A stretch of DNA of 36,578 nucleotides, from assembly GCA_025350905.1 (NCBI GenBank), contig JANXWY010000487.1, positions 1 to 36,578 on the forward strand, given 5' to 3'. This document shows positions 3 through 17,002 of the stretch, piece by piece. Position 1 is the stretch's first letter; every line of letters begins with the position of its first letter. The translations under genes were made by a program, and so were the position numbers. Source of the DNA: Verrucomicrobiota bacterium. GTDB taxonomy: Bacteria; Verrucomicrobiota; Verrucomicrobiia; Limisphaerales; JADLHS01. Under the pieces are notes generated by a model. The model was not told the DNA's origin. It was given only the letters and a program-made list of their open reading frames with translations, and did no database searches.

Positions 3-926
3 ATGCGCGCGGTGGCCCCTACAATTACGGCGTCGCCATCCGACCAAACCGTGACGGAAGGCGACGACACAAAGTTTATAGTAGTGGCGAGTGGCACCGC
101 GCCGTTGAGCTACCAATGGAAGCGGAACGACGTGAATGTGATTGGCGAGACTGCTTCCACGTTGACGCTGAACAAAGTGACGGCGGGTCAGGCCGGCAAT
201 TACACGGTGGTGGTGAGCAACTTGGCTGGGCCGGTAACCAGCAGCGCGGGCAGGTTGACGGTCATCCCGCCGCCGATGGCGAGTAGCCAGCAAGTGCAGG
301 TGGACGCAGGCAAGCCGGTGAGCATTACACTTCAGGGAAGCGGTCCGGCCGGCGTGACGCTGATATATAGATTGGCGACCAAGCCGAGCCGAGGGCAAAT
401 CGGAGATCCCAGCGGGAGCGCGGTTCTCTATACGCCCGACAAAACTGCGAGCGGGCAGGATAGTTTTACCTTCGTGGTGGGCGATGGGAAACGCGAATCG
501 GCGGCGGCCACGGTGGCGATCAACATCAAGAACGAACTGGTGGATACCCTGGCCGCGGCCGAACTTGCCTTCAAAAGCGGGGTGTATGACGACGCCGAGA
601 GTAACCTTAAGAAGGTGTTTGAGTTCGACCCCGGCAACGAAAAAGCGAAAGCCTTGCAGGGGCAAGTAGCTGCGGCCAAACAAGCGCGGGCACAACGCAC
701 GGAGTTGGATAATCAGTTGGAAGATTTACGAAAGCAATTGTTAGGCGGCAAAAAGCCCCAATGGTTGACGGTGCCGGAATCCACCAAGAAAAAGATCGAG
801 ACGGATTTTGATACCACCGGTTTTAAGACTCAAATAAAGGAGCTCGAAAAAAAGTACGCGAGCTTGCTGGACAAAGTTCGGACGGACTTAATCAAAGCGC
901 TGAAGGAAAATTTGGATAACCGGTGA
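3..926 (+). CDS. Ig-like / cadherin-like repeat protein with TPR-coiled-coil tail (5' partial)
   Basis: The frame is open to the window edge and the first ATG has no visible upstream signal, so this is probably the C-terminal part of a longer protein. Residues about 7-90 form an Ig-like (I-set type) domain, with the pattern PLSYQWKRN, TLTLNKV, AGNYTVVVSN. Residues about 95-175 look like a cadherin/Big-type domain (SITLQG, VLYTPDKT, DSFTFVVGDG). Residues 177-225 resemble one TPR unit (AELAFKSGVYDDAESNLKKV). The rest is charged coiled coil ending in KENLDNR. Ig modules of this kind are typical of large surface or secreted Verrucomicrobia proteins. The helical tail after the Ig part is less usual and suggests a periplasmic or cell-associated scaffold. 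Function is unknown. A weak hairpin (931-946) follows the stop but has no T-run. Confidence 0.7.
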   Translation: MRAVAPTITASPSDQTVTEGDDTKFIVVASGTAPLSYQWKRNDVNVIGETASTLTLNKVTAGQAGNYTVVVSNLAGPVTSSAGRLTVIPPPMASSQQVQVDAGKPVSITLQGSGPAGVTLIYRLATKPSRGQIGDPSGSAVLYTPDKTASGQDSFTFVVGDGKRESAAATVAINIKNELVDTLAAAELAFKSGVYDDAESNLKKVFEFDPGNEKAKALQGQVAAAKQARAQRTELDNQLEDLRKQLLGGKKPQWLTVPESTKKKIETDFDTTGFKTQIKELEKKYASLLDKVRTDLIKALKENLDNR

Positions 927-1080
927 CGAGTCCCGCCGTGACGGGATGATTTGGAAACAATTTTAGCTTTTGGCGTCGAAAGCCCAAGCCAGTGGAAAAT
1001 AATCAACAAAAAGATAGACACCTTTCCATCAACCAGCTACAAAGAGCACGAAGTCTTAATTCCCGGTGCGAAACTCAGTT

Positions 1081-2220
1081 ATGAAGACCAAGCTCACCAA
1101 TCGCCGCGATGGGGTTAACTCATCACGCCGTTTCCATCCCAAACTTTTTTTTCTCGGGGCCGGGGCCATTTTGTCGTGTCTGCCGGCAACTGCGCAAAAC
1201 CAGCAGCCGGCAGCGGATGAACCGGATGTCAATGCGCCTTGGCCGTCCGCCGCAAAGCAAGGACGTTCGCAGGGCAAACCGACCGAAGCTACCACCACCA
1301 CCACGACCGCCCCAGTCAAAGCGAGCCCGGCGCCCGATCCCGTGGTAAAAAGTGTGCCGCCGGATACCTCCTTGAGCACTCCGTCGCCAGCCGTGCTGCA
1401 GGCGCCCAAGGCCACCAAGAATCAGGTTTCCATTTCGGCGGACTATTTTCTAGGGCAGGGGGAAGTCACCTTGCCTTTGGGTTTCTCCTTGTCCAGCGTG
1501 CCAGGGTTTGAAGGGTATAAACCGGAGGTGGCCAAGCCCACGCGGAATGCGGACTATATCGGGGCGACGGTTTCTTACTCGTACGGTCAGTCTTGGTATT
1601 TGGACGTCGGATATTTGCAAGGCAAATCCAGCGGCGAAGTGGATGTTAACTTGGGGATTCCACTCCCCTCCAATTTCACGATCGATGAGACGGGTTATCA
1701 AGCGTACATTCGTTATGTCCCGAAGTCGCTGCGCGGTAAACGACTCTCGGCGTACTTTCGCCTGGGGGTGAACTATGTGGACTCGAAGTTGACCGACGAT
1801 TTGACCTTCCCCAACGGCGGCTATTATACCGAGCGGATTCAGGCCACCGACATACTGGGCAACTTGGGTTTGGGGGTGGGTTACCGGCTCTGGAATGTGG
1901 GCCATTTCCGGCTGGGCTTGCAGGCGGAGGCGGAAGGTTTTGGTGGCGTTCGCACGCAAGATATCAACGAGAGTCTGGGCGACACGCCGCTGAGTCCGAC
2001 GACCATCAATAACACCCTGTTCGGCGGCATTGGTCGGGGCACGGTGCGCATGGAATATCGCTTCGGACAATCCGGCCTCCTGCGGATGTTCGCTGATGTC
2101 GGGGTCAAGGTGATCTTCACTGAGATCCAATATCCCAGTGTCGGTAATTATAATGGGAGTAGTTACAACGAAATGTTGTGGGGGCCCTACGCGAAACTGG
2201 GGCTTAGTTATTCCTTTTAG
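1081..2220 (+). CDS. Putative outer-membrane beta-barrel protein
   Basis: Encodes 379 residues. I chose the ATG at 1081; an in-frame GTG lies five codons earlier and neither has a clear ribosome site. The N-terminus is a signal peptide: basic n-region, then LFFLGAGAILSCLPATA, with cleavage likely near ATA-Q. Residues about 25-105 are a low-complexity Pro/Ala/Thr linker that includes a run of six Thr. The remainder alternates polar and hydrophobic residues with many Tyr/Gly strands (GATVSYSYGQSWYLDVGYLQ, AYIRYVPKSL, YFRLGVNYVDSKL) and ends in GLSYSF. A terminal Phe with alternating hydrophobics is the usual signal for beta-barrel insertion. It is likely an outer-membrane protein of unknown cargo. 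It lies 24 bases before the large repeat protein, so the two may be cotranscribed. Confidence 0.75.
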   Translation: MKTKLTNRRDGVNSSRRFHPKLFFLGAGAILSCLPATAQNQQPAADEPDVNAPWPSAAKQGRSQGKPTEATTTTTTAPVKASPAPDPVVKSVPPDTSLSTPSPAVLQAPKATKNQVSISADYFLGQGEVTLPLGFSLSSVPGFEGYKPEVAKPTRNADYIGATVSYSYGQSWYLDVGYLQGKSSGEVDVNLGIPLPSNFTIDETGYQAYIRYVPKSLRGKRLSAYFRLGVNYVDSKLTDDLTFPNGGYYTERIQATDILGNLGLGVGYRLWNVGHFRLGLQAEAEGFGGVRTQDINESLGDTPLSPTTINNTLFGGIGRGTVRMEYRFGQSGLLRMFADVGVKVIFTEIQYPSVGNYNGSSYNEMLWGPYAKLGLSYSF

Positions 2221-2244: not shown

Positions 2245-5200
2245 ATGAATAAGAACTTTCTGGCGGGCATCATAGTTTCAATGTCAGTTGGGCTTGCCCC
2301 GGCGCGCGCCGCGCTGGAATTCACCAACGTCACTCAACAGACATCCGCCAATACCAACTTCGCGCTCAACGCCGTCGCGTTTGATGGCGGCGGTACTTTT
2401 ATGGCCGTGGGTGATAACTCGCGAGTGTTGACGGCCCAGTTTGTCCTCGGTTCGACAAATTTGCTTTGGACCACGAACACCACTCCCGGGGCCAGCTTGT
2501 CTTTAAGATCGGTGGCGGCTTCCGGCCTGAATCGGTTTGCCGCCGGTGGCGCCAATAATGTGGTCTATTCCAGTTTGAACGCCACCACTTGGGAGACGGT
2601 TCCCACCCATCCATTTGGTCTGGTGACCACGGTGCAGGGGCTGGCTTTCAATTCCAGCCTGGACCGCTTCGCCGCGGTCGCATCGATTCCGAATATTAGC
2701 TATGCCGACAGCAGCTTGCCTTCGTGGTCTCCCGCCTTGGTTAAGAATTCCGTGCTGATTGAATCCTTTCGGGGAGTGACTGCATTGTCCGGAAACGGAT
2801 TTGCGGCCTGCGGTCGCGGTGGGGATATCCGGCTCTCCAAGGATGGGGCGCTGACGTGGGATGCAAACCGTACCTACAACGTGAGTGAACCGGAGCTTTT
2901 GGGGATTGCCACCGATGGGGGACTGGGGCTCATCAGTGTGGGGAACGCCGGTCGAGTCCTGATGTCCAGCAATTTTGGGACGAACTGGGATAGCGTTGCC
3001 CTTTGGCCGGGACCTAATAACACCAACAATGCCGTGGCCTATACGGGCGATCGCGCGAGCCTCGGCGATGGCGACTATATCATCGTTGGCTCTGGCGGTC
3101 AGATCTGGACGGGTAACACCACCAATACGAGCAACTGGACGAGCACGATCAATTCATCAAACAGCAGCTTACGGGGCGTCGCGTTCGCCACCACCGGAAT
3201 CATGAAAGGCGTCGCCATGGTGGTGGGCGATAACGGAGCGATCCTGCTGGGCGGCACGCCGCCGCCCGCGCCAACGAACGCGACGGATCAGACGGTTTGT
3301 TCCGGTTCCGGCAATACGAATCTCAGCGTAAACCTGAATACGAATGGTTACCCGGTGGGGACGCTCGTCGTGGATTGGTTCAATGCGAATGGCGTGTTGG
3401 TGGCGACCATACCCGCCGACAGTCTCAATTACTATGCGGCTACCAACACGATCCCGGATGGCGGCAACCATGCCTCCAACTTTGTTTACCAGGCGCGAGC
3501 CCGCGACCTAAGAACCGGATTCACCAGCGCCACCCTGGCGGCGACGCTCACCATCAACCCAAGACCGACGTCGCTGTTGACGAGTTTGAGCCGGACCAAT
3601 TGTAATGATGGCAGTTTGTTCACGCTTACGAACGTGTTGACAGGGATTGGTCCCTGGACGGTGACGTGGTCTTCGAATGGGGTACCGGTGGTGCAACCGG
3701 TGAACAACTCCGGGCCCGGTCCGTTCCTCAACACGTACACGGTGTACCCGACGAACGTGCTGGCTGGCGCGGCGGTCACCAACATTTATTTTGTGCTATC
3801 GGTCTCAAATAATGCGACGACTTGCAGTGGCAATCGGCCGGGGGACATTGCCGGGCTAAACCGAGTGACGGTATATCCGACCCCGACGGTGAACGCGGTG
3901 GCGAATCAGGGGCCGTATTGCAACACGAACGCGGGTCTGGCTATTAATTTTAGTGGCCCGGTGGCGGGGACCACTTTCAGTTGGACGAGCACGGTCAATG
4001 TGGGCTTCGGCGTTGGTGGGGTGGGCAACATTGGCGCTTTCACGGCAAGCAACCCGGGCACGGCGCCGGTGACGGCGACCGTGACGGTGACGCCGAGTGC
4101 GAACGGTTGTGTAGGTACCCCGAGAACGTTCACGGTGACGGTGAATCCGACGCCGACGGTGAACTTGATGGCGAACCAGGGGCCGTATTGCAATACGAAC
4201 GCGGGTCTGGCTATTAATTTTAGTGGGCCGGTGGCGGGAACCACGTTCAGTTGGACGAGCACGGTCAATGTGGGCTTTGGTGTTGGTGGGGCGGGCAATA
4301 TTGGCGCTTTCACAGCAAGCAACGGAGGCTCGGCGCCCGTGACAGCGACGGTGACGGTGACGCCGAGTGCCAACGGTTGTGTGGGCACGCCGTTCACGTT
4401 TACGGTGACAGTGGATCCGACGCCGACGGTAAACGCGGTGGCGAATCAAGGCCCGTATTGCAACACGAACGCTGGCTTGGCGATCAATTTCAGTGGACCG
4501 GTGGCGGGGACGACCTTCAGTTGGACCAGCACGGTCAATGTGGGCTTTGGCACTGGTGGGCCGGGGAACATTGGCGCTTTCACGGCAAGCAACGCGGGCA
4601 CGGCGCCGGTGACGGCGACAGTGACGGTGACGCCGAGTGCCAATGGGTGTATCGGCACGTCGCTCACGTTTACGGTGACAGTGGATCCGACGCCGACGGT
4701 AAACGTGGTGGCGAATCAAGGGCCGTATTGCAACACGAATGCGGGGCTGGCGATCAATTTCAGCGGCCCGGTGGCGGGGACGACGTTCAGTTGGACCAGC
4801 ACAGTCAACGTGGGCTTTGGCGTTGGCGGGGCTGGGAACATTGGCGCCTTCACGGCAAGCAACGGAGGCACGGCGCCGGTGACGGCGACAGTGACGGTGA
4901 CGCCGAGTGCGAACGGTTGTGTGGGCACGCCGCGTACATTCACGGTGACCGTGGATCCGACCCCGACGGTGAACGTAGTGGCGGATCAAGGGCCGTATTG
5001 CAACACGAACGCAGGCTTGGCGATCAATTTCAGCGGACCGGTGGCGGGCACAACGTTCAGTTGGACCAGCACAGTCAATGTGGGCTTCGGCGTTGGCGGG
5101 GCAGGGAACATTGGCGCTTTCACGGCAACCAATGGGGGCAACTCCCAGTTGGCTTCCACCGTGACGGTGACACCGAGTGCCAATGGATGTGTCGGTACGC

Positions 5201-6024
5201 CGCTCACGTTTACGGTTAGAGTCAATCCGACGCCGACGGTGACAAACGTGGTCAATCAAACCCAGACCGTTTGCAATGGGGGCTTGACCGCGCCTGTGAC
5301 TTTTCTCGGCAACCCGGCGTCTTCCTTCACGTGGGTTAAGAACAATACCAACATCCTGCTCGGACCGGTCAGTGGAACGGGGACCATCTTGCCGTTCGCG
5401 GTCACTAACAGCGGGACGACGCCGGTGACGGCGACCATCACGGTGACGCCGATTTATAGTCTCGGTGGGGTGAATTGCGACGGAGCGGCGACGAACGTTC
5501 AGATCACAGTGAATCCGACAGCGAAGGTTACCAGTGTAATAAATCAGACGCAGACGGTGGTGCTTGGCCTCATGACTGCCGATGTGCAGTTAGACGGGAC
5601 GGCGACGTCATACACCTTCGTTAATAACACCACGAATATTGGTCTGCCGGCCAGCGGGACCTTGGCCGCCGCCGGTGGCATGGCGACCTTTGGCACGTAT
5701 TTGACTACCAATGCCGGGACGGCAACGATCACATTTACCCCACATTATCTCAACGGCGGGGTAGATTGCACCGGGTCCACTACCAACGTGACCATCACGG
5801 TCACCGCGACCAACGCCCAAATCTTCACGATTCAACAATTGAATTTGACCAACGTTGTGCTGGAGTGGACTTCACCTTCAAATACCATGCTGTTGTCGGC
5901 CACGAATTTGAATCCGGCCGGATGGGTGACGAATGCTACGGGTCTGCCCGGGACCAACCGCTATACCAATTCGATTCTCGTGCCGCCTCCCTACCGGTTT
6001 TTCCGGCTGACCAACGCGCCGTAG
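2245..6024 (+). CDS. Large secreted protein: beta-propeller-like head and tandem PKD-like repeats
   Basis: Encodes 1259 residues. A GGGAGG ribosome site (2233-2238) lies 6 bases before the ATG. The signal peptide is residues 1-22, ending in APARA. Residues about 25-335 contain recurring blades (FMAVGDNSRVL, LISVGNAGRVLMSS, AMVVGDNGAILLGG), as in YCF48/BNR-type propellers. Residues about 340-545 hold Ig/PKD-like material. Five near-identical 90-residue modules cover about 546-995, each with ANQGPYCNTNAGLAINFSG, TTFSWTST, GNIGAFTASN and TVTVTPSANGC. Two diverged modules reach about 1190. The last 70 residues (LEWTSPSNTMLLSATNL to RFFRLTNAP) resemble a C-terminal domain common in secreted Verrucomicrobia proteins. 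It is probably a surface adhesin or matrix protein. A terminator follows. Confidence 0.8.
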   Translation: MNKNFLAGIIVSMSVGLAPARAALEFTNVTQQTSANTNFALNAVAFDGGGTFMAVGDNSRVLTAQFVLGSTNLLWTTNTTPGASLSLRSVAASGLNRFAAGGANNVVYSSLNATTWETVPTHPFGLVTTVQGLAFNSSLDRFAAVASIPNISYADSSLPSWSPALVKNSVLIESFRGVTALSGNGFAACGRGGDIRLSKDGALTWDANRTYNVSEPELLGIATDGGLGLISVGNAGRVLMSSNFGTNWDSVALWPGPNNTNNAVAYTGDRASLGDGDYIIVGSGGQIWTGNTTNTSNWTSTINSSNSSLRGVAFATTGIMKGVAMVVGDNGAILLGGTPPPAPTNATDQTVCSGSGNTNLSVNLNTNGYPVGTLVVDWFNANGVLVATIPADSLNYYAATNTIPDGGNHASNFVYQARARDLRTGFTSATLAATLTINPRPTSLLTSLSRTNCNDGSLFTLTNVLTGIGPWTVTWSSNGVPVVQPVNNSGPGPFLNTYTVYPTNVLAGAAVTNIYFVLSVSNNATTCSGNRPGDIAGLNRVTVYPTPTVNAVANQGPYCNTNAGLAINFSGPVAGTTFSWTSTVNVGFGVGGVGNIGAFTASNPGTAPVTATVTVTPSANGCVGTPRTFTVTVNPTPTVNLMANQGPYCNTNAGLAINFSGPVAGTTFSWTSTVNVGFGVGGAGNIGAFTASNGGSAPVTATVTVTPSANGCVGTPFTFTVTVDPTPTVNAVANQGPYCNTNAGLAINFSGPVAGTTFSWTSTVNVGFGTGGPGNIGAFTASNAGTAPVTATVTVTPSANGCIGTSLTFTVTVDPTPTVNVVANQGPYCNTNAGLAINFSGPVAGTTFSWTSTVNVGFGVGGAGNIGAFTASNGGTAPVTATVTVTPSANGCVGTPRTFTVTVDPTPTVNVVADQGPYCNTNAGLAINFSGPVAGTTFSWTSTVNVGFGVGGAGNIGAFTATNGGNSQLASTVTVTPSANGCVGTPLTFTVRVNPTPTVTNVVNQTQTVCNGGLTAPVTFLGNPASSFTWVKNNTNILLGPVSGTGTILPFAVTNSGTTPVTATITVTPIYSLGGVNCDGAATNVQITVNPTAKVTSVINQTQTVVLGLMTADVQLDGTATSYTFVNNTTNIGLPASGTLAAAGGMATFGTYLTTNAGTATITFTPHYLNGGVDCTGSTTNVTITVTATNAQIFTIQQLNLTNVVLEWTSPSNTMLLSATNLNPAGWVTNATGLPGTNRYTNSILVPPPYRFFRLTNAP
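3881..5230 (+). repeat. Five-unit 270-bp tandem repeat inside the PKD-like protein gene
   Basis: Units begin at 3881, 4151, 4421, 4691 and 4961, each opening with the block CSCCGACGGTRAAC. The period is exactly 270 bases (90 codons) with no insertions or deletions. Differences between units are mostly single bases, many of them synonymous. A sixth unit starting at 5231 has the same opening but is strongly diverged. The low divergence and exact phase suggest recent duplication or gene conversion within the coding sequence. Confidence 0.92.
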
Positions 6025-6174: not shown

Positions 6175-7125
6175 ATGAGTCAAACGATGACAACCTTAAC
6201 CGCGCAGGAGAGTGGTTGGATCCATGATGTCGCCGGGCGGCTGCGGCTCATTCAGGCAGACACGGCCCAAGTCGAACCGGGCAAGCGCGCGGAATTTCTG
6301 CAGGAAGAGGTTGAGCGCAGCCTTAAGAGTGTTCCCCCGGCAAACCGGAAACGATTTCTCGAGGCTTTGCTGGCGCGCTTCCCGGTGGCGGGCAAGGTGG
6401 TCAGTTCCTTTGCGCCGGCGCCGGCTTTGCCCCCCGCCCCAGTAGCCGCCCCGGTGGCCGTGGCGGAATCACCGATGGAAACTTTGGAGCGGTTTTTGGC
6501 GTCCGTCCCCAAGCTGTCAGATGATCAGCGGGGCGATCTCGTGCAGCGCATGTTGGGCTCCGATTTGTTCCAAGCCTATCGGAGCGCGTTGATATTGGAA
6601 ACTTCTGAGGAGGCGCAGCGGGCGTTGGGCCTCCTGAGCGGGCAGCAGCCGCGGCTTGAGCGAATGGTGCAGTTGACCGTGGTGTTGCTGGATTTTGTTA
6701 CCCGACTGGACCAAACGGGACTGAAAACGATGGAAGCCTTGACGCCCCGCAGTCCGCTGTTGAAACGCAACGAATCGGTGCGCAAGGCGGCGGCGCGCTT
6801 TTTGGTCGGCGAGGTTGAAACCGTGGAGCCGCAGTTACGCGAAGCCTTTGGTTTGCTGGCGGCGTTGCTGGTGGCGCCGCTCAGCGGCGGCCGCGTTTTT
6901 GGCCAGCCGTACGTGGAGCGCTTCTCCCCCGCGGCGATTGAAGATGTCGTCACGGCGGAGGGCGGGGGCGGGGTCTTCAGCAACAAGAAGGAGCGTTGTT
7001 GGATTCGGTATTGCGACCTGGCCCGCGACTTCGCCACCGCCGATCTGGTGGATCGGAAAATCAAGGAATGTCTCGCGGCGGTCGTGCAGAAAACCGTCGA
7101 GAAGAGTGCCGGCGGGGGGCGATAA
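6175..7125 (+). CDS. T6SS-operon first gene; possible TagH-like protein lacking an FHA domain
   Basis: Encodes 316 residues of soluble protein with no signal peptide or membrane span. Residues about 5-75 are helical. Residues 80-98 are a Pro/Ala/Val linker (PAPALPPAPVAAPVAVAE). Residues about 100-316 are helical. The C-terminal pattern (LREAFGLLAALLVAPL, then YVERFSPAAIEDVV, then a WIRYCDLARDF helix) recalls the C-terminal domain of T6SS FHA proteins (TagH), which have an FDPxxLE-type turn followed by a helix rich in aromatic residues. That match is from memory and weak, and no FHA domain is present. The stop lies 6 bases before tssK, so it belongs to the secretion operon. An accessory or baseplate-linked role is inferred from position. 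Confidence 0.6.
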   Translation: MSQTMTTLTAQESGWIHDVAGRLRLIQADTAQVEPGKRAEFLQEEVERSLKSVPPANRKRFLEALLARFPVAGKVVSSFAPAPALPPAPVAAPVAVAESPMETLERFLASVPKLSDDQRGDLVQRMLGSDLFQAYRSALILETSEEAQRALGLLSGQQPRLERMVQLTVVLLDFVTRLDQTGLKTMEALTPRSPLLKRNESVRKAAARFLVGEVETVEPQLREAFGLLAALLVAPLSGGRVFGQPYVERFSPAAIEDVVTAEGGGGVFSNKKERCWIRYCDLARDFATADLVDRKIKECLAAVVQKTVEKSAGGGR

Positions 7126-7131
7126 TTTTTT

Positions 7132-8493
7132 ATGCACATCCATTGGCATGAAGGTTTATTTCTGCAACCTCACCACTTGCAGCTCATGCAACACCGGCTG
7201 TCGGCGGATGTGCGGGCTGCCCGCTCGTTGTTGACGCCATATTGTTATGGGGTTCTGGAAGGCCGGCTCGTCCAGGACGACCTGGCCGATGGGCGGGTGC
7301 GGTTCGAACGGTTGCGCGTGATCATGCCGAGCGGACAGGAAGTTTTGTTCCCGGAGGATGCCAATCTACCGGCGCTCGATATCAAGGCTGAACTCGTCCG
7401 CAGCCCGGGCCCGCTGGAAATTTTTCTCGCGGTGCCGCTGTGGGCCAAGCGCCGGGCGAATGCCTTTCGTCCGGGCGAGCAGGCGGATTCCCGCATCAAG
7501 TTGTTGTATATGCCGGAAGAGGCCCGCGAGGTAACCGATGAGAACACGGGCGAAAATCCGCAGGCCGTTCACTTCCGAAAAATAAATGCCCGGGCAGTGT
7601 TCAAGGGCGAAGACCTCGCGGATATGGAATTTATTCCCTTGCTCCGCGTGGTGCGGGCGTCGGGGGAGGATCTGGGCAAACCCCGGCAGGATCCAGATTT
7701 CGTGGCGCCGTCCCTCCTGCTTAAATCATCGCCGGTCCTCCATGACTTGATGCGCGAACTGACCGCACAACTGAACGCGAGCCGGGAACAGTTGCGTGTC
7801 AAGGTTACAACCGGCGGTTTGGGGCTGGAGGTAAAGTGGGACCTGACGTTACGGCTCACCACGCTGAATCGCTTTTGTAGCAGCCTGCCGTCCCTGGTGG
7901 AGGAGGGCACGGTGACCCCCTTCGGAATGTATTTGCAGCTGCGCGAATTGTTGGGCGAATTGCTGGCCTTGAATCCGGACAAGGGCGTGTTTGATTGCGA
8001 GCCGTACAATCACTTGGATCCCTTGCGCAGTTTTAAAGAGCTCGATCGAAAAATCCGCGCCGAAATCCGTGTCTCCCGCGCGACCGAACCGATGCGCGTG
8101 GTCTTTGCGGGCAGTCCGGGCCTGTTGCGGGCGACGCTCGAGCCGCAGCATTTTGAAAAGCCGACCGGGCATTTCCTGGGCATCAAGACCAAAGTGGAGC
8201 GCACGAAACTCGCTTTGTATTTGGCGGATTCCAACAAGTTCAAATTGATGCCCGGCAGCATGGAACGGGTGGCCATCTTTGGCGTGGAACTGAAGGAAGA
8301 GAATTATCCCCCGTTGGAACTGCCGGGGCAAAATGACCTGCATTATTTCCGGGTCGTGCCCGCCTCCAACCAGCGGCGCTGGGACAAGATCAAAGAGGAA
8401 AAAGTAATTTCGTTGGTCTGGAACAACTCGGATTTTGACCTGGCCGATGCGACCATGACCCTATATATGACCTTGCCCTCAGGCTCCGCATGA
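7132..8493 (+). CDS. tssK: Type VI secretion baseplate subunit TssK
   Basis: Encodes 453 residues, the usual TssK length. The opening HIHWHEGLFLQPHHLQLMQH is the family signature (W-x-E-G-M/L-F-L-x-P-x-H-x-Q). The C-terminal domain carries the conserved stretch DLHYFRVVPASNQRRWDKI, followed by the final beta-rich segment ending in TLYMTLPSGSA. In known systems TssK trimers join the baseplate to the cytoplasmic parts of TssL and TssM; its N-terminal half is related to phage receptor-binding protein shoulders. The stop overlaps the tssL start by 4 bases (ATGA), so translation is probably coupled. Confidence 0.95.
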   Translation: MHIHWHEGLFLQPHHLQLMQHRLSADVRAARSLLTPYCYGVLEGRLVQDDLADGRVRFERLRVIMPSGQEVLFPEDANLPALDIKAELVRSPGPLEIFLAVPLWAKRRANAFRPGEQADSRIKLLYMPEEAREVTDENTGENPQAVHFRKINARAVFKGEDLADMEFIPLLRVVRASGEDLGKPRQDPDFVAPSLLLKSSPVLHDLMRELTAQLNASREQLRVKVTTGGLGLEVKWDLTLRLTTLNRFCSSLPSLVEEGTVTPFGMYLQLRELLGELLALNPDKGVFDCEPYNHLDPLRSFKELDRKIRAEIRVSRATEPMRVVFAGSPGLLRATLEPQHFEKPTGHFLGIKTKVERTKLALYLADSNKFKLMPGSMERVAIFGVELKEENYPPLELPGQNDLHYFRVVPASNQRRWDKIKEEKVISLVWNNSDFDLADATMTLYMTLPSGSA

Positions 8494-9173
8494 AACTTCT
8501 CGAACTGTACGAAGACTTGTTCCAATACATCTGCCGACTGAATCGGGCGGCCAAAGCCCAGGCGCAACCGGAGTACGTTCGGGTGCGATCCGAAATCAAG
8601 GAATTACTGGGGGAAGTCAGCCGTGCTGCCGCGGCGGATGTGCGGTTGCTGAACCAGGTCCAGCGGCTGGAATTGTGCCTGATTTTTTTTGTGGATAATT
8701 TGATCTGCACCAGCCGGCTGAAGCTGGCCACCCAGTGGACGGAAAACCGCCTGGCCAAGGAGCGAAACGAACTCGCGGGGGACGAGCGGTTCTTCGATTT
8801 CTTGGATCAAGACTTGAAGGACACCAGCGAGGAGGCGGTGGAGCGGCTCGCGGTTTATTATGCCTGCCTCGGGTTGGGTTTCATGGGAATGTACCAAGGG
8901 CAGTCCGATCAGATTCGCCAATACATGGAACAGATTTTTCCCCGGATCCGGCAATGGGTGGACAACGATCCGCGGACCAAGATCAGCGATGAAGCCTACA
9001 AATTCACCGACACCCGCGTGCTGACCGAGCCGCCCAGCAACAAGATCATATTAGTGGCCGTCGTTTTTGGATTCCTGAGTCTGTGTGTGCTCATCGTGTA
9101 TTACGCGCTCTTTGCCAGCGCGGTCGGAAAATTGAGCGACTCGGTGGCGACAATTATTAAGCAAGGCCAGTAG
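8490..9173 (+). CDS. tssL: Type VI secretion membrane subunit TssL (short, DotU family)
   Basis: Encodes 227 residues. The N-terminal cytoplasmic helical domain has the DotU pattern: LYEDLFQYICRLN near the start, a VDNLI motif, GDERFFDFLDQ, then YYACLGLGFMGMYQ. One C-terminal membrane span lies at about 184-208 (ILVAVVFGFLSLCVLIVYY). Only about 18 residues follow, so there is no peptidoglycan-binding (OmpA-like) extension; wall anchoring would need another protein. TssL forms the inner-membrane complex with TssM and contacts TssK. It overlaps tssK by 4 bases and lies 80 bases before tssM. Confidence 0.93.
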   Translation: MKLLELYEDLFQYICRLNRAAKAQAQPEYVRVRSEIKELLGEVSRAAAADVRLLNQVQRLELCLIFFVDNLICTSRLKLATQWTENRLAKERNELAGDERFFDFLDQDLKDTSEEAVERLAVYYACLGLGFMGMYQGQSDQIRQYMEQIFPRIRQWVDNDPRTKISDEAYKFTDTRVLTEPPSNKIILVAVVFGFLSLCVLIVYYALFASAVGKLSDSVATIIKQGQ

Positions 9174-9239
9174 CTTGGGATTTCAGGACCCCGGGCGACC
9201 GGCGGAAGCGGCGCTGTAAAGTTCCGCAAACATTGGCAC

Positions 9240-9245
9240 AAGGTG
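9240..9245 (+). promoter_or_regulatory. Ribosome binding site deciding the tssM start
   Basis: AAGGTG lies 8 bases before the ATG at 9254. A TTG at 9233 in the same frame would extend the protein by seven residues but has no such site, so the ATG is preferred. Confidence 0.55.
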
Positions 9246-9253
9246 CAGCAACT

Positions 9254-12200
9254 ATGGAAGACGATTCAAAATTTGGCCACTTGGTGAAATGGGGACTGGG
9301 CGCCGTCGGTTTGGGCGGCGTGGCGGCGGTGATTTCCGTACCCTCGTCCTTTAAAATCTGGGTGGCGGTCGCGATTCTCCTCCTGTTTGTCCTCGTTTTC
9401 GGCGGCTATTTTCTCTGGCGCCGCATGCGCGCCCGCCGGCAGAGCAAAATGTTTTCCTCCGCCCTCGAGGCGCAGACCGGCGCCGCGCCGCGCGCCATCA
9501 GCGATCCCAACCAGCGCGCGGCGCTGGACAAATTGCGGCAGAAGTTTCAAACCGGCCTGCAGGAGTTCAAAACCCACGGGAAGGACATCTACAAGCTGCC
9601 CTGGTACGCGATCATCGGTGAATCCGGCTCCGGAAAATCAGAAGCCATCCGTCATTCCGGCATTGAATTTCCCCCCGGACTGCAGGACAAAATGCAAGGC
9701 TCCGGCGGGACCGTCAACATGGATTGGTGGTTCACCAACCGGGCCATTATTCTCGACACCGCCGGTTCGATGATCTTCCGCGAGACGCAGGCCGGCGATT
9801 CTCCCGAGTGGGCCGAATTCCTCCGCCTGTTGAAAAAATCCCGTCCGCAGTGCCCGATTAACGGCCTCTTTCTGGTGCTTTCCGTCGAGAGCCTCATTCA
9901 CGACTCGGCCGACAAGATTTCGGAGAAGGCCAGCAAACTGGCCCAGCAGCTGCAATTGATTCAGCGCACCTTGGATGTGCGCTTTCCGGTTTATCTCCTC
10001 GTTACCAAGTCCGATTTGATGACGGGTTTCCGCGAATTTTTCGACAGCATTGAAGACCCGCTGCTGCAGCATCAGATGTTCGGCTGGTCGAATCCGGATG
10101 CCCTCGACTCACCCCTCCGCCCGGAACTCGTCGAACAACATCTGAAAAGTGTGGCTGACCGTTTGCGCCGGCGTCGGCTGGCGCTGATTTTGCGCGAGCC
10201 CTCCTCCGGCGCGCGCTTGGGGGAAACCACCTTTTTTACGGCCTCCTCCCAACCGCTCGGCGGCCGCGGTGGGCAGCGCCGATTGGATGACATGGACGCG
10301 CTGTTCGCCTTGCCGGAAAGCGTCATGCGGCTGGTGCCGCGCCTGCGCCGCTATTTGGAGACGGTGTTTGTCGCCGGCGAATGGTCGGCCAAGCCGGTGT
10401 TTCTGCGCGGCATCTATTTCACCTCTTCCATGCGTGAGGGCAAGGCATTGGACGAAGCGATGGCGCTGGCCACCGGCCTGTCGGTGGATCAATTGCCGGA
10501 AGATCGCAGTTGGGAAAAGAACCGGGCGTTCTTCTTGCGGGATCTTTTCGTGGAAAAAGTCTTCAGCGAAAGCGGACTGGTCACGCGGGCCACAAATACC
10601 ATCCAGCTCCTGCGGAAACGGCAGTTCGCAATTTTTGGGACCGCCGGAGTCGCCCTGCTGCTGCTGATCGTATTGGCGGGATTCGGGTACCGCAACCTCA
10701 AGCGCAATGTCCTGGTCGAAGCCGCGGATTGGGAGGCCGGAGTCAAAGGCTGGAATCAGGGGGACTGGTCGCCCTCCATTATTCGCGCCGGAACGCAAGA
10801 TGCCTTTCATTATGCTTACGCTGGCACCAATCGCGAGGCGCAAGTGGGGGCCGGCAATTTGTCGGTGGTTGAGTACCACCAGCGGCTCAAGGAGGTGGTT
10901 TCCAAGAAGCTGGGCGTGAGCCTGATTTTCCGTCCCCTCCTCTGGTTCGGGTTTGGCAATGTCAATAAACAAGATCGTGCAAATGCGCAGCGGGTCCTGT
11001 TTGAACAGGGAGTGCTCAAGCCCCTCGTCGTGGAAACGAGAAAGAAGCTGCAGAACCGGCAGCCCACCGAGAAAACGTCCGCCCGCCATCAAGGCGCATT
11101 GCTGGCCCTGATTCAACTGGAAGCGGATCGCTTTGCGACCAACGTGGGCTATCTCAGCGGCACCAATGCCGCCGCGACTTACCTGAACTCGTTCGTTACC
11201 TATCTCACGGACTCCGATACCAGTCCCGTGGACACCAATCTGGTATCCATCTTCGCCTGGACCTATTCCAAGGGAGGGAGCGGGGATGGCAAATGGCCGC
11301 CGTCGCTGCTGCTCGCCGGGGATGATCTGGCAAGTAATACGGCGATTATGACGGGATTAAAGGGACTTCGCGAGGCCAACCTAGCGAGCGAGAAGCGGAT
11401 CACGGATTACGGGCTCCCGGCCCTCAACCAGCTGGTGACGGACTTCGTGGCGTATCGAAAATTGGAAAGGAATTGGCTGGCCGATCCCAGCGGATCGTGT
11501 GATGCGGCGCTGACAAGTTTGGAAACCGCCATGCGGGCTTTGAAGGAAAGTGAAAGCAAGTTTTTCGAAGCCACCAAGGGTGTGGTCGGCCGACCCCTGA
11601 CGAATCTGACGGAGTGTTATGACAGGCTGGCCGTGGCGGCGGCCAGCGCCTCGGGGCTGAGCATCGAAGATAATTTGAAAGGCTTTTCCGAAAAATTTAG
11701 GACCAGCCGCCTGCACTCACAAATTGACCAACAACTAAAGGAATTTAGGTCCGCGGCGTCGGGTGCCGTAAAATCCAAGCGCACCGAGCTCGCCAAAGAT
11801 CTGGCGGAGCTCGATCTGACATACACGCTCCCTGTCGGTGGTGAGTCCGTGTATGACACGCGCTGGTCGCTTTATTTGGCGGCCTGTGCCTTGGATGGCT
11901 CGAAAGCGGACGTCAAGGAAGCCGACCTTGGTCATGCGTGGGAGCGCTTCAATAACTTGATGGCCAAAGCCGCCGAGTTGAAAACCAAACTAAAAGCTTA
12001 CGCCGGACCCTCCGCCACGGAAGTTGCCAGTGCCTGCGAACGGATTGCCGGTCGGGCGGCCACGCAGATGCAGGAGCGTTACGTCTCCAGTTACGTCCAA
12101 ACCGCCACCAACAAGTTGGTTGAATTGGCGGGCAATGCCGGGTCGTTCGGAGGCGTGACCAATGCCGCGAATTGGCTGGAAATGTTGAAGCGTGACTTGG

Positions 12201-12988
12201 CGGACACCGCCACGCTCAAGGAGCAGGCGGGGAAACTGGGTCCCGTGCGGGTCGCCTTGACCAATGCTTATCGCGAGATCCCCCAAAGTTATGCCAACCA
12301 GTCCTTCGAGAGCCTGAAGCGGAATCTGAAGTTTCCAGTCTTGCTCACCGCGTCCGAGAGCTTCGATGAATCGGGGTTGAAGGCCGCGCGCGTCACCCTC
12401 AATCGGCTCACGCTGGACTTGAACAATGCCGCGGTGTGGCAGTCGTTTCCCGGCAGCGACGCGATCTTGCAGTCCGCGCGGAAAAATCCCTACGCCGAAG
12501 TGGTGAATGCGCTGGTCGCCGAGAGCGGAAACCTGGCGGAGATCGAAATACTTTTCACGCTGCCGGCTCCGGGAGCCAGCGCGGAAGGGGGGCTCTACCG
12601 CGATCCGCTTCGGTTTGCCAACATCGTGGTGAACGGAAAAACCAATGACGTCAACGGTTGGAAGCGGCCGGGGGATGTCTCCAGTTTTCCCGAGAAGCAA
12701 ACTTCCATTGCCGCCAAGATCCCGGTGAACGCTGGCTTCCGCGTGGAATTCTTCTCGGACATGAACCGGCGAACCCGGACCGCCACGCTGGGTTTTGAAG
12801 GCAGTGAGGACAATTGGACACTCATCAGGTTGATAAAAGCTGGCCATGCCGAGCCCATCAACAATAAAGGGGGCACGGAGTGGCGGCTGAAACTTCCTGT
12901 CACCGTCGGGGCCAATCAGCCCACGTTGGAGGCCTTTGAAATCAAGGTCAGCAGCCCACTCCCGAAAAAAGAGGAGTGGCCGAAGTAA
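9254..12988 (+). CDS. tssM: Type VI secretion membrane subunit TssM (IcmF family)
   Basis: Encodes 1244 residues, a typical TssM length. Two N-terminal membrane spans fall within about 10-55 (GLGAVGLGGVAAVISV and IWVAVAILLLFVLVFGGYF). The cytoplasmic NTPase-like domain carries Walker A GESGSGKS (122-129), DTAG (168-171) and TKSD (251-254), so nucleotide-binding motifs are intact. A third span lies at about 459-481. The large periplasmic part follows, mostly helical. Near the end DNWTLIRLI corresponds to the conserved GPWALFRLL-type motif of the TssM C-terminal domain. TssM spans the envelope and normally meets the lipoprotein TssJ at the outer membrane, but no tssJ lies beside it. The following gene starts 26 bases after this stop. 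Confidence 0.95.
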   Translation: MEDDSKFGHLVKWGLGAVGLGGVAAVISVPSSFKIWVAVAILLLFVLVFGGYFLWRRMRARRQSKMFSSALEAQTGAAPRAISDPNQRAALDKLRQKFQTGLQEFKTHGKDIYKLPWYAIIGESGSGKSEAIRHSGIEFPPGLQDKMQGSGGTVNMDWWFTNRAIILDTAGSMIFRETQAGDSPEWAEFLRLLKKSRPQCPINGLFLVLSVESLIHDSADKISEKASKLAQQLQLIQRTLDVRFPVYLLVTKSDLMTGFREFFDSIEDPLLQHQMFGWSNPDALDSPLRPELVEQHLKSVADRLRRRRLALILREPSSGARLGETTFFTASSQPLGGRGGQRRLDDMDALFALPESVMRLVPRLRRYLETVFVAGEWSAKPVFLRGIYFTSSMREGKALDEAMALATGLSVDQLPEDRSWEKNRAFFLRDLFVEKVFSESGLVTRATNTIQLLRKRQFAIFGTAGVALLLLIVLAGFGYRNLKRNVLVEAADWEAGVKGWNQGDWSPSIIRAGTQDAFHYAYAGTNREAQVGAGNLSVVEYHQRLKEVVSKKLGVSLIFRPLLWFGFGNVNKQDRANAQRVLFEQGVLKPLVVETRKKLQNRQPTEKTSARHQGALLALIQLEADRFATNVGYLSGTNAAATYLNSFVTYLTDSDTSPVDTNLVSIFAWTYSKGGSGDGKWPPSLLLAGDDLASNTAIMTGLKGLREANLASEKRITDYGLPALNQLVTDFVAYRKLERNWLADPSGSCDAALTSLETAMRALKESESKFFEATKGVVGRPLTNLTECYDRLAVAAASASGLSIEDNLKGFSEKFRTSRLHSQIDQQLKEFRSAASGAVKSKRTELAKDLAELDLTYTLPVGGESVYDTRWSLYLAACALDGSKADVKEADLGHAWERFNNLMAKAAELKTKLKAYAGPSATEVASACERIAGRAATQMQERYVSSYVQTATNKLVELAGNAGSFGGVTNAANWLEMLKRDLADTATLKEQAGKLGPVRVALTNAYREIPQSYANQSFESLKRNLKFPVLLTASESFDESGLKAARVTLNRLTLDLNNAAVWQSFPGSDAILQSARKNPYAEVVNALVAESGNLAEIEILFTLPAPGASAEGGLYRDPLRFANIVVNGKTNDVNGWKRPGDVSSFPEKQTSIAAKIPVNAGFRVEFFSDMNRRTRTATLGFEGSEDNWTLIRLIKAGHAEPINNKGGTEWRLKLPVTVGANQPTLEAFEIKVSSPLPKKEEWPK

Positions 12989-13014: not shown

Positions 13015-15792
13015 ATGGCAAATTTCTTCCAACGCCTGCTGGGCCCAAGCCGCCGCCCGGTGACGAAAACCGGTCCGCCCCGATTGGTCCTGGCCGCGTT
13101 CGGCAAACATCCCGGCTGGAACGATCACATTCCCGGCATCGGCATGGAAACCGAGGCGCTGGCGCAGCTCAAGCAGACGATGTACGTCTCCGGCATCGGC
13201 GGGCGGATCGACGCCGGCGCGTGGACTGGGCTCGCGGAGGAGAAACGGCTCGAGGGTTTTGATCATACTTTCCTCAGCGTTCGGGGAGGACAAAACATTA
13301 CGGGCTGCCTGTTCTCCTCCGCCGATGGCTTGCGGCGCCGGGAATATCCCATGGTCCTCTGCGTGGACGGGGGCGGCGCCAACGCCGGATTCATCTTGCC
13401 GCCAGCGCAGTCCGAACTCGACCGCTTGCGGGTGGCTTGCCGGGCGACCGCCTCGGCCGAACAAGTCACCACGGAATGTCGTCTGGCCCAGGATCGGTTG
13501 CGCGGAATTCTTGCTGGCCCGTCATCGACGTTGCCGCCGACGGTTGCGTTACCCTCCGAAATTCGCCGCCGCTTTCTCGAACACCGCGACCTGGGGCCGG
13601 ATCGTATCGGCCTGCTTCGAGCCTTGCATGAACTCGGGGCTTATGGCGATCCCGCACGGCCGGTCGCGACTGGTCCCGGGGCCAAAGTGCGTTCCTGCCA
13701 TCTGCGCCTGCCCCGCGCCGCGGATTCTCTCAATGGCTCCCTTCTGTTATGGGCAGAATTTTTCGGTTGCGCAGTTTCGGCCTCGACGCCTTTGCTGTTG
13801 CTCACCCGGGCCGGCGTGGATTGGCTGGATGTGATTATCGGGGAGCCGATCAGCGACGATTTCTTCTGCCTGCAGGCTTCACTCACGGCCTTGCCACTGG
13901 CGTCGCAAATTCCTTATGACTTGACGCCCGAATTGAAACCGCGGCTCCAAGCCATCGAGGCCAAATTTTTACGCCCGGACACTTCATCGCTGCTGGCGAC
14001 CCCAGTCGCCGGCGCCGTCCCGTCGCCCGCAACGAATGCGGGCGTGAGTCAAACTCCGCCGCGCCGCGGCCTCAACTTGGTAATCGTTCTGGTCGTTGCG
14101 GTATTGGTTTTGGCGGGTGGTTTGCTGGTTTGGTTGTTCACCGGAAACAACACTTCACCTTCGGACGCCAAGCGGCTGGCAGCGGCCTCCAATTCCGTCC
14201 CCGCCAATGGCGTCCCTGCGCCAACCCAACCGGCGGCGTCGGAGGGAACAGGAGATGAGCGCGCTCGCGAAGCGGCAAGGCTGAAAGTGGAAGCGGAGGG
14301 CAAACGCTTGGCGGAGGCGAAACGGGTCGCGGAAGCCAATGCGGCGGCGGTAACCACGACCAAGAACGAAGCAAACCCCAAAACTGAACTGCCACCGAAA
14401 GCCGCCAGCCAACCTCAAGCAGTGGTTGAGACCAAGCCACTGCAAGCCGAGGCGAAGCCCGGGAGCAACGCGATAGTTGCGGCGGAATCTCAATTCACCA
14501 ACCCGGCGGCCGGGCAGGGTGGGAAGGACGCCGCGCCGCCCGCGGCAGTCAAACCCGTCGAGGACGAGAAGGCGCAAGCTCGAGCCCGGGAGAACGACGC
14601 GGACCTCGCGCAGATCGCTTTGGCCCAGGGTAATTATGATCGCGTCCTGGAACTGGGTCAGAAATGGCCGGGGGTCGAGCGTTTTACCGCTTTGTTGCAA
14701 TTGGCCGCGACGGAGACGAATCAACTCGTGCAGGTCAATGCATTTCTACTGGCCGGGAACTACAATCCAATTCTCACCAACCGCCTGCCGGAGAATCCCA
14801 AGTTCAAAGCGATTTGGACGGCGGCCGACGGCGAAAAGCGATTGCTCGACCAAGCCAATGCCGAGTTTGCCGGCGGGGACTACGCTTTCCTCCAACGGCC
14901 GGAGGTGCAAGCCTTGGAGGCGAAGCCGCCATTTAGAAAATTGCTGGCGGACGGAAGTGCGGAGGCGGGCCAGTTGATCAAAGCGAAGGAGTTGCAAGCG
15001 GCAAATCAACCGCAAGCGGCCAAGGATTTTATCGCGGCACTGAAAATTCAAAAGCCGCCGTTCGTCAAGATTCAACAGTGGGCGACGGGCGAATTGGTGC
15101 GCCTCGCCGGCGAAGAGAAGGAAAGCCAGCTGGCGAAAAGCCTGTTCGAGCAAGCGGATTACGCCGGGGCTTTGGCCCTCTGCCAAAAGTACTCCGGCCT
15201 GCCGGTGTTCGATGGTCTGGTCCGCAGCGTCAACGAGGAGCAGCAAGTCCTGGTGGACACCCGCAAAAAATTCACCGCCGGCGACTATTCCTATGTGAAG
15301 GAGTTGGCCTCGCGAGCTTACCGAACCAAGCCGCCGTTCTCCGAGTTGCTGCGCCAAGGTAGCGAAGAGCAGGCGACGCTTGGTGAATTGGAGAAACTCA
15401 AACAGGCGGGCGACTGGCAGGCGCTGCCGGGGAAACTAGGCGCTTTGCCGGCGGCCGTTTCCGGCAAACCCCCCTTTGAGGATTTGCGCAACTGGGCGGG
15501 CGCGAAAGCGGATGCGCAGGCGGAGCTCCGAAAGAAAGACCCCGTCTGGCTCGACGCGGAATTCGAAAAGCTGCTGGTTTGGTTCAATATTGTTCCGTCC
15601 ACCAGCCCCAGAATTCAAACGCCAGAGGCGCGCAAACAAAAAATGTTGGGCGCCATCGGACCGCAAAAAGACGTCTATCTGCGCGAAATTCAACGCCTGG
15701 AGGACGAGTATAAGAAAGGTGGTTGGCTGACTCAAAATGATCGCGAGAAATACCTGAAGGAGTTGAAGAAGACGATCACGTATTGGGAATGA
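13015..15792 (+). CDS. TagF-like domain fused to membrane span and seven-repeat periplasmic region
   Basis: Encodes 925 residues from the ATG at 13015; a GTG at 12976 overlapping tssM is possible. Residues about 23-330 are TagF-like: AAFGKHPGWNDHI (from 28) matches the G-K-x-P-x-x-x-D opening of that family, followed by EYPMVLCVDGG. An RR pair precedes one span at about 352-375 (LVIVLVVAVLVLAGGLLVWLF), predicting N-in, C-out. Residues about 395-530 are Ala/Lys/Glu-rich with a TolA-like helix. Seven degenerate ~42-residue repeats start at 538, 580, 620, 662, 713, 755 and 798. The usual pattern is A-G-x-Y, a helix, then K-P-P-F and a second helix. TagF proteins are known as cytoplasmic post-translational T6SS regulators; this anchored form could link regulation to the envelope. 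That role is inference. Confidence 0.8.
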   Translation: MANFFQRLLGPSRRPVTKTGPPRLVLAAFGKHPGWNDHIPGIGMETEALAQLKQTMYVSGIGGRIDAGAWTGLAEEKRLEGFDHTFLSVRGGQNITGCLFSSADGLRRREYPMVLCVDGGGANAGFILPPAQSELDRLRVACRATASAEQVTTECRLAQDRLRGILAGPSSTLPPTVALPSEIRRRFLEHRDLGPDRIGLLRALHELGAYGDPARPVATGPGAKVRSCHLRLPRAADSLNGSLLLWAEFFGCAVSASTPLLLLTRAGVDWLDVIIGEPISDDFFCLQASLTALPLASQIPYDLTPELKPRLQAIEAKFLRPDTSSLLATPVAGAVPSPATNAGVSQTPPRRGLNLVIVLVVAVLVLAGGLLVWLFTGNNTSPSDAKRLAAASNSVPANGVPAPTQPAASEGTGDERAREAARLKVEAEGKRLAEAKRVAEANAAAVTTTKNEANPKTELPPKAASQPQAVVETKPLQAEAKPGSNAIVAAESQFTNPAAGQGGKDAAPPAAVKPVEDEKAQARARENDADLAQIALAQGNYDRVLELGQKWPGVERFTALLQLAATETNQLVQVNAFLLAGNYNPILTNRLPENPKFKAIWTAADGEKRLLDQANAEFAGGDYAFLQRPEVQALEAKPPFRKLLADGSAEAGQLIKAKELQAANQPQAAKDFIAALKIQKPPFVKIQQWATGELVRLAGEEKESQLAKSLFEQADYAGALALCQKYSGLPVFDGLVRSVNEEQQVLVDTRKKFTAGDYSYVKELASRAYRTKPPFSELLRQGSEEQATLGELEKLKQAGDWQALPGKLGALPAAVSGKPPFEDLRNWAGAKADAQAELRKKDPVWLDAEFEKLLVWFNIVPSTSPRIQTPEARKQKMLGAIGPQKDVYLREIQRLEDEYKKGGWLTQNDREKYLKELKKTITYWE
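14626..15540 (+). repeat. Seven ~42-codon degenerate protein repeats (KPPF repeats)
   Basis: Repeat starts fall at 14626, 14752, 14872, 14998, 15151, 15277 and 15406. Each opens with a variant of AGxY (QGNY, AGNY, GGDY, AANQ, QADY, AGDY, AGDW). About 20 residues later comes a variant of KPPFxxLL (VERFTALL, NPKFKAIW, KPPFRKLL, KPPFVKIQ, LPVFDGLV, KPPFSELL, KPPFEDLR). Exact KPPF occurs at 14923, 15052, 15328 and 15466. The pattern suggests helix-turn-helix units stacked like TPRs. I do not recognise it as a named repeat family. Confidence 0.75.
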
Positions 15793-15889: not shown

Positions 15890-17002
15890 ATGAACGAACT
15901 TGTAGCCAAACTTTTGCAGCCGGTGTCCGCCGACCAACCCTGCGGGCCGGATCTTTCGGAAAAGCCCTTGTACGACGAATTGACCCAGGTGCTGAAGGGC
16001 AAACCTTCGATTCAGGTGGGCTCAGTCGAAAAGGCCGCGGAACCCCCGGATTGGCGCGAATTGAAGGCCAAGAGCCTCGAGTACCTGACCCAATCGAAGC
16101 ACCTCCGCGCGGCTATGATGTATTGTGGCAGCTCCCTGCAAACCGCCGGATTGCCCGGTTTTCGCGACGGGCTCCAGTTGATTCGCGGCTTGGTCGAACA
16201 GTACTGGCCCACCATTCATCCACCCCTGGATGTGGAGGATAACAACGACCCGACGCAACGCTTGAATATTCTGGGCGCCTTGAACTCACCGCGTGGTACC
16301 CTCCGGCCCGACATCCAGCAGTGGCTTGCAATCATTGATTATCTTTACAGCGCCCCGCTTTGCCGGCCAAGAGGGGCGGAGCCCGTGACCTTGGATATGG
16401 CCGCCGCCGCCCATCGGCAGGCCGAGAACAAATCCGAGGCCCAAAGCAGTGAAAGCGCTTCGTCCCCGCCGCCGGGAATGGATCTGGCGCAATTGGGTAA
16501 AGCCTTTCGCGCCGCCAACCCGGCCGAAATCGAGGCCAACCACACGGCCGTCGCGGAAGCCTTGGAGGCTTTGGCGGGGCTGGATAAATTCCTCACCGAA
16601 ACTCTGGGCGCGGGCAATACCATCAGCTTCGATGAACTCCAGAAAGTCTTGAAGGAACTGCATGGCGTGCTGCAGGCGCAGCTGCCGGGCGCAGCGCCCG
16701 CCGCGGGCCCCAGTTCTCCGGAAGGTGCGGCGGTGGAAACCACAGCCGCGGCGGGGGCTTCGGCGATTTCGATCAGCGGGGCCGTGCGCTCCCGCGAAGA
16801 TGTCGTGCGGATGATTGATGCGATTTGCGAATACTACCGGCAGTTCGAGCCGTCCAGTCCCGTCCCCTATTTGCTGAAACGGGCGCAGAAGGTGGCCCGG
16901 ATGAACTTTGTGGAATCCATGCAGGAATTAAATCTGGCTTCCGTGGACGCCCTGCGGCCGAGCATGGGTACCGCGGTGGATACCGACCCGCTGGCCAGCT
17001 AG
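15890..17002 (+). CDS. tssA: Type VI secretion protein TssA (ImpA family)
   Basis: Encodes 370 residues. The N-terminal ImpA domain (about 5-130) has the family signatures CGPDL, then HLRAAMMYCGSSLQTAGLPG and VEQYWPTIHPPLDVED. A variable linker follows (about 180-200, then an Ala/Pro/Gly-rich part at 265-290). The C-terminal domain SREDVVRMIDAICEYYRQFE with PSSPVPYLLKRAQKV matches the end domain of short TssA proteins. TssA caps or primes the growing tail and meets the membrane complex and baseplate. The gene sits 97 bases after the TagF fusion and just before the methyltransferase gene, consistent with one operon. Confidence 0.93.
   Translation: MNELVAKLLQPVSADQPCGPDLSEKPLYDELTQVLKGKPSIQVGSVEKAAEPPDWRELKAKSLEYLTQSKHLRAAMMYCGSSLQTAGLPGFRDGLQLIRGLVEQYWPTIHPPLDVEDNNDPTQRLNILGALNSPRGTLRPDIQQWLAIIDYLYSAPLCRPRGAEPVTLDMAAAAHRQAENKSEAQSSESASSPPPGMDLAQLGKAFRAANPAEIEANHTAVAEALEALAGLDKFLTETLGAGNTISFDELQKVLKELHGVLQAQLPGAAPAAGPSSPEGAAVETTAAAGASAISISGAVRSREDVVRMIDAICEYYRQFEPSSPVPYLLKRAQKVARMNFVESMQELNLASVDALRPSMGTAVDTDPLAS

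Follow-up and report, generated by a model that had tools for sequence, protein, structure and literature searches.

A TagF-like domain joined to a membrane span, a repeat arm and a shared tail in a T6SS locus of a Verrucomicrobiota bacterium

Between tssM and tssA, a T6SS gene row of a Verrucomicrobiota bacterium encodes a 925-residue protein, P0001, in which a TagF-like domain of about 320 residues is followed by a membrane span, an Ala/Lys/Glu-rich stretch, seven repeats and a conserved tail. The reading that we favor, and hold to be moderately likely, is that P0001 is a membrane-tethered divergent TagF through which an envelope signal acts directly on the assembly of the secretion membrane complex, replacing the usual phospho-relay. 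To our knowledge, TagF is usually a small, unattached protein of the cell interior that serves as an off-switch of the T6SS; in Proteobacteria, an outside signal reaches TagF inhibition through a kinase relay. The stretch of DNA analyzed here, referred to as the window, comprises 36,578 nt, namely positions 1 to 36,578 of the forward strand of contig JANXWY010000487.1 (assembly GCA_025350905.1). The gene and the parts of its product are located as follows:

13015..15792, + strand: TagF-TM-arm-tail fusion P0001, 925 aa (single open frame; architecture repeated in four assemblies)
13075..13974, + strand: TagF-like domain, residues ~21-320 (AF2 model, Foldseek/VIA, hhalign, family profile matches)
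14062..14142, + strand: single transmembrane segment preceded by an RR pair, residues 350-376 (hydropathy 3.1; K/R enriched on the N side)
14248..14589, + strand: Ala/Lys/Glu-rich low-complexity helical stretch, residues ~412-525 (translation)
14602..15513, + strand: seven TPR-like repeats of 39-52 residues each, residues ~530-833 (self-similarity, all-helical model, TPR_2 in relatives)
15505..15789, + strand: conserved C-terminal tail module of ~95 residues, residues 831-925 (profile A7)

The frame from 13015 to 15792 is unbroken, tssM ends at 12988, and an in-frame GTG lies at 12976, 5′ of the P0001 start. G+C at codon position 3 stays high from end to end, so the frame bears no sign of a join. 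Because the same domain order recurs in four separate assemblies (loci L028/L017, L029, L030 and L032/L150, with L028 from a Pedosphaera sp.), the fusion is not an assembly artefact; a frameshift or assembly join yielding two separate genes, which the first-pass annotation had named as the outcome that would undo its proposal, is ruled out by the identical fusion in these independent assemblies. Its observation of one open frame directly 3′ of tssM, holding a TagF-like domain, a single span, an Ala/Lys/Glu stretch and repeats, is therefore confirmed, and its idea of a regulator and an envelope part in one protein was right. The neighboring genes are:

3..926, + strand: second arm protein, X, represented by its C-terminal part and probably truncated at the contig start (Ig_3, Big_9, tail profile)
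1066..2220, + strand: predicted outer-membrane beta-barrel protein (OMP_b-brl 3.4e-4)
2245..6024, + strand: PKD-repeat surface protein upstream of the T6SS module, syntenic (PKD_5 2.8e-20)
6175..7125, + strand: Fha/TagH-like protein with an FHA_C region and no detectable FHA domain (T6SS_FHA_C 8.9e-4)
7132..8493, + strand: tssK (T6SS_VasE 2.4e-52)
8490..9173, + strand: tssL, short, no OmpA-like extension detected (DotU 1.3e-25)
9233..12988, + strand: tssM (IcmF-related_N 6.5e-54, TIGR03348 7e-88)
15890..17002, + strand: tssA (ImpA_N 1.1e-30, TIGR03363 1.2e-62)

Homologues of the PKD-repeat protein occur in L028, L030/L180, L179, L154 and L183. Further along the window, a 391-aa ORF (28642-29817) with no Pfam match adjoins a glycoside hydrolase.

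In the case of the N-terminal domain, fold, profile and gene order agree in pointing to TagF. A structural model generated with AF2 from an alignment of 63 relatives (mean pLDDT 89.6) was compared with solved structures using Foldseek and VIA; the best match was TagF of A. baylyi (9t0n, Z 16.4, 269 residues, rmsd 4.1), followed by TagF of P. aeruginosa (6iz8, Z 12.4). The next PDB entry was a longin domain at Z 8.0, and the longin matches (Z 8 and lower) were taken to reflect a common core fold only. At the profile level, hhalign of profile A3 against five proteobacterial TagFs gave E 1.1e-4 (probability 57%) and aligned the TagF motifs FGK..D and S.D..GR..P. Pfam TagF_N was matched at E<=1 by 21 of the 63 relatives and NCBIfam TagF (TIGR03373) by 34, both weakly (best 5e-4), and families other than TagF were each matched by one or two; a PDB sequence search with the family profile returned chance matches only. 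P0001 alone gives no match to the TagF model of Pfam or to that of NCBIfam, its sequence being too distant from known TagFs for these models to score, which counts against the favored reading; the models miss divergent members, and P0001 is TagF-like, not a member of Pfam TagF_N. The gene order Fha-TssK-TssL-TssM-TagF is common to the TagF-like loci and to NCBI-annotated proteobacterial clusters, and the TagF-like gene lies directly downstream of tssM in the window and in about 65 of about 78 related loci, a position already known for TagF genes (PMC6082577). The TagF-like identity first proposed for this region thus stands on fold, profiles and gene order, and the structural match whose absence was to count against it is present. 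P0001 shares with TagF (DUF2094, TIGR03373; 6iz8, 9t0n) the predicted fold, the signature motifs and the post-tssM gene position; known TagFs, however, are cytoplasmic and lack a span, whereas P0001 has an envelope arm of ~400 residues and a tail fused on and, with a strong span at residues 356-374, does not fit a soluble cytoplasmic protein. Because of this span it is filed as a TagF-like fusion, not as a classical TagF.

The span is the one strong hydrophobic segment that was found in P0001 (residues ~356-374, Kyte-Doolittle 3.1), and the RR pair reported on its N side is indeed there, at residues 350-351, with no K/R immediately past the span. Such a placement of charges would put the TagF domain in the cytoplasm and the arm in the periplasm; a K/R excess on the N side is present in 23 of 35 fused relatives, a proportion that counts against a firm topology in the favored reading. 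The following Ala/Lys/Glu-rich stretch resembles TolA, as had been noted, on composition only; longer TolA-like versions occur in L028 and L036, and an NCBIfam match to the gliding protein GltJ that falls in this low-complexity stretch was discarded as an effect of composition. Seven repeats of about 42 residues had been described past this stretch, and seven units are found, starting at residues 530, 570, 610, 653, 705, 744 and 788 (spacing 39-52) and conforming loosely to L-x-x-A ... A-G-D-Y ... K-P-P-F-x-x-L. Compared with itself, the arm matches best when shifted by 43 residues (z 3.65; 95% shuffle maximum 3.44), a modest signal above chance. A structure model of the arm, built from an alignment of five rows, is all-helical, and its fold search gave no match at E<=0.001 and weak helical-repeat or TPR-type matches only. 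Of the two identities suggested earlier, SEL1 found no match; TPR models in Pfam do not match the P0001 arm itself, TPR_2 is detected in close relatives, and the repeats look like diverged TPR-type helices.

Neither the ~95-residue tail nor the tail-bearing protein X at window positions 3-926 figured in the first account of this DNA. A profile built from the tails of TagF fusions alone, searched among 1000 ORFs, recovers kinase, pseudokinase and PP2C arm proteins; its matches at E 1e-3 or better include span-bearing PP2C phosphatases (L151, L153), proteins resembling kinases, and truncated tails, and unrelated ORFs begin at E 1.6, leaving a clear gap. This sharing of one tail between TagF, pseudokinase, PP2C and kinase proteins counts in favor of a membrane-tethered TagF. 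With a profile built without the window's own tails, the tail of window X was recognized at E 6.2e-5 in 1000 proteins, the best unrelated ORF standing at 0.099. Three further X-type proteins, in genomes G008, G025 and G483 respectively, run from a kinase-like N-domain through a span and TPR-like repeats to the tail, and each has the outer-membrane barrel gene next to it:

L179:3664-6705, - strand: pseudokinase-TM-TPR-tail protein (G008)
L181:1130-3265: pseudokinase-TM-TPR-tail protein (G025)
L152:1909-4407, - strand: pseudokinase-TM-TPR-tail protein (G483)

In all three the HRD motif has become HGN and the DFG motif DPF or DPY, and the proteins are, to judge from these motifs, pseudokinases. 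All seven X-type tail proteins, namely that of the window and those of six other genomes, directly precede a member of the outer-membrane barrel family encoded at 1066-2220, which likewise counts in favor of a tethered TagF.

The same observations could be read otherwise, with the tail as a partner-swapping scaffold that pairs TagF in the periplasm with pseudokinase X, or with PP2C or kinase arm proteins, so that X and not an envelope signal controls TagF. Such an arrangement would account for one tail being shared by TagF, X, PP2C and kinase proteins; in G008, moreover, the pseudokinase X (HGN, DPF) lies upstream in the gene row of tssM and the TagF fusion, and the window holds the tail end of an X-like protein. 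This protein is cut, however, and its visible part consists of Ig, cadherin-like and one TPR-like unit before the tail, not of a kinase-like domain; in L183, as in window X, Ig-type domains precede the tail in place of long TPR arms, and X-type proteins also occur in a genome without detected TssM (G025). We consider the scaffold, one of the two main rivals of the favored reading, quite unlikely. TssM was not detected in G025, G641, G639 or G052, all of which encode arm proteins of the PP2C, kinase or X type, and the arm/tail module is therefore broader than its T6SS use; by the same token, its ligand need not be part of the T6SS, which counts against the favored reading. In sequence terms, arm and tail form a module common to pseudokinases, PP2C phosphatases and kinases in the taxonomic order of the host, and the shared tail connects the T6SS to a broader Ser/Thr signalling repertoire of these bacteria, which have been little studied. 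Among the genomes without detected TssM, a PP2C-TM-arm gene adjoins a very long Ser/Thr kinase with a TPR arm in G052 (L020:4134-12322, - strand) and in G641 (L151:1230-7637).

The T6SS of the source genome is probably complete, since sheath and baseplate genes exist elsewhere in it: TssC is encoded on contig C235 and TssF on contig C207. In contrast to a PpkA-Fha-PppA relay, no FHA domain is detectable in the Fha protein of the locus, and none of 45 Fha homologues (0/45) matches an FHA model; within the TagF loci searched, no kinase or PP2C homologues were found except one kinase in L107. Both observations count in favor of a tethered TagF. Locus L020 carries kinase and PP2C homologues together but has no TagF, and no TssM was detected in its genome. 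A kinase or phosphatase encoded elsewhere in a genome could still act on the T6SS, a point against the favored reading.

TssJ (PF12790) gave no match in 29 genomes, with a positive E. coli control, although a divergent TssJ could escape such a search. This absence leaves room for the first-pass suggestion that P0001 may replace missing wall-anchoring parts. It also bears on a structural explanation, the other main rival, that we consider unlikely: arm and tail would stand in for TssJ and for a peptidoglycan-binding TssL and brace the apparatus by fixing TssM/TssL to the outer membrane or wall, the TagF domain being a mere docking module. Along with the undetected TssJ, the short tssL product, the Ala/Lys-rich TolA-like stretch of P0001 and the OMP gene within the gene row of the window would all fit a brace. 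Genomes with a stand-alone TagF likewise lack a detected TssJ, however, so that the missing TssJ does not track the arm; arm and tail are also found on phosphatases and kinases of genomes without detected TssM, and it is an FGE-like domain, not the arm, that ends most fusions.

To define how far such fusions extend, 84,980 genomes were scanned, giving at least 80 loci that were chosen by motif, so that the proportions below are not a census. Among the matches listed, the loci belong almost entirely to Verrucomicrobiota and Planctomycetota, chiefly Phycisphaerae, and 32 of 69 TagF-like frames are long fusions of 700-1824 aa, nearly all of which have a single span past the TagF domain; that relatives join TagF via a span to varied envelope domains counts further in favor of a tethered TagF. 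An FGE-sulfatase-like end is present in 24 of 33 long fusions among these matches, the window's fusion being included in the count, and L044 bears a TPR-like arm in addition to this end. These ends, seen on L018, L021, L036, L044, L060 and other long fusions and predicted to be periplasmic, have 0-3 cysteines in their final 170 residues and are unlikely to be working formylglycine enzymes. The survey of T6SS loci in the two phyla that had been suggested at the outset thus did uncover TagF-TM-envelope fusions, and the first interpretation is upheld in part: TagF-like domain, span, repeats and gene position stand, while P0001 proves to be one version of a large and diverse group rather than singular, and the SEL1 option falls away.

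On the TagF tree, P0001 sits in a group of seven (SH-aLRT 99), all of which have the span and six the TPR-like arm, one member being cut by a contig end. Fused and free forms switch about 12 times, so extensions have been gained or lost often. Against the favored reading, TagF is a free-standing, span-less protein in many relatives, and the TagF-like family can therefore do without anchoring. The frequency of these changes, together with the highly variable sequence and repeat number of the arm, would suit a remnant, that is, a leftover or processed part that is tolerated and has no regulatory role while TagF works as usual. We regard this as very improbable: the tail is conserved and common to otherwise unrelated proteins, and open frames of 700-1800 aa have been maintained in 32 loci.

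In the membrane-tethered reading, the TagF-fold domain would lie in the cytoplasm beside TssL/TssM and the Fha-core protein, where, like other TagFs, it most likely keeps the T6SS membrane complex or baseplate from assembling. The single span would lead to the diverged TPR-like helical arm in the periplasm and to the tail, which would dock on an envelope partner, the best candidates being the outer-membrane barrel protein encoded upstream and the second tail-bearing protein X. An envelope change, such as damage or contact, would shift or free the arm and lift TagF inhibition locally, and this direct switch would substitute for the PpkA-Fha-PppA relay, no enzyme or reader domain of which was found in the clusters except the one kinase in L107. 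Fusion, TagF fold, hydrophobic span, repeats, shared tail and gene order were observed in the analysis, as were the undetected FHA domain and the lack of a kinase or phosphatase homologue beside the gene; topology, inhibition by P0001, the partner of the tail and the signal are inferred. That relatives in two phyla fuse TagF to other envelope domains suggests that the switch reads envelope state directly, and the persistence of TagF-span-envelope fusions in dozens of species of both phyla, where the relay was not found, suggests a direct envelope route to TagF. A bolder version, which we hold to be doubtful, is that the T6SS is turned on and off free of phosphorylation, with TagF and a dead PpkA-like pseudokinase sharing one periplasmic tail that reads the outer-membrane barrel, and with an Fha devoid of its phosphothreonine reader; if true, a kinase relay has turned into a mechanical switch that spans the membrane.

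Several known systems share features with P0001. TagR, of the TagQRST-PpkA cascade, is an FGE-like periplasmic protein, to which the FGE-like domain that ends most TagF fusions would correspond. Among PpkA/PppA-type regulators, those with periplasmic domains have the same layout of cytoplasmic regulator, TM and periplasmic part; unlike them, P0001 has no kinase or phosphatase domain, and it is the PP2C and kinase proteins in the host's taxonomic order that carry an arm and tail of the P0001 type. TagF represses the T6SS, acting via Fha and keeping the membrane complex from assembling (PMC6082577, PMC5995506, PMC10482370). The TagF-PppA chimera of Agrobacterium (PMC5995506) is built of two parts with TagF first, as in P0001, but in the chimera a cytoplasmic PP2C phosphatase follows and the entire protein is predicted to be cytoplasmic, whereas P0001 continues into a span and an envelope arm. 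P. aeruginosa reports outer-membrane damage to its T6SS via a kinase relay, the TagQRST-PpkA cascade (PMC11881912), whose purpose of linking envelope state to T6SS assembly would match that of P0001; the cascade, however, employs separate proteins and a kinase relay, while P0001 is a single protein with no relay found at its locus. In the open-access literature we found no description of a TagF fused to a membrane span, and nothing to the point on TagF together with Verrucomicrobiota, Planctomycetota or TPR. The TagF domain, the T6SS and TPR-like arms are already known; judged from these open-access papers, their union in one membrane-spanning regulator appears to be new, and a natural TagF-span-envelope fusion offers a single protein in which a direct signal route can be tested.

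The survey also yielded TagF-like genes in other settings. Opitutaceae-type loci in G131 (L022), G211 (L023/L095), G178 (L024), G465 (L082) and G468 (L098) carry TssM (IcmF) and a TagF-like gene, while neither VipB sheath nor TssF was found in these five genomes, of which G178 is a single contig and 100% complete. In L098, a ShlB-type TpsB gene follows the TagF-like gene, and these Opitutaceae-type genomes may have a TssLM-TagF system that lacks a tail and is linked to two-partner secretion. In T6SS-type loci of Phycisphaerae (L034:10858-19976, L060:14753-20849 and similar ones), the TagF gene is likewise immediately followed by genes for a ShlB-type TpsB and a TPS-domain TpsA, and two genes past the TagF-like gene, L104 (10275-12539) and L102 (9037-11325) encode an FHA-domain ABC transporter fusion.
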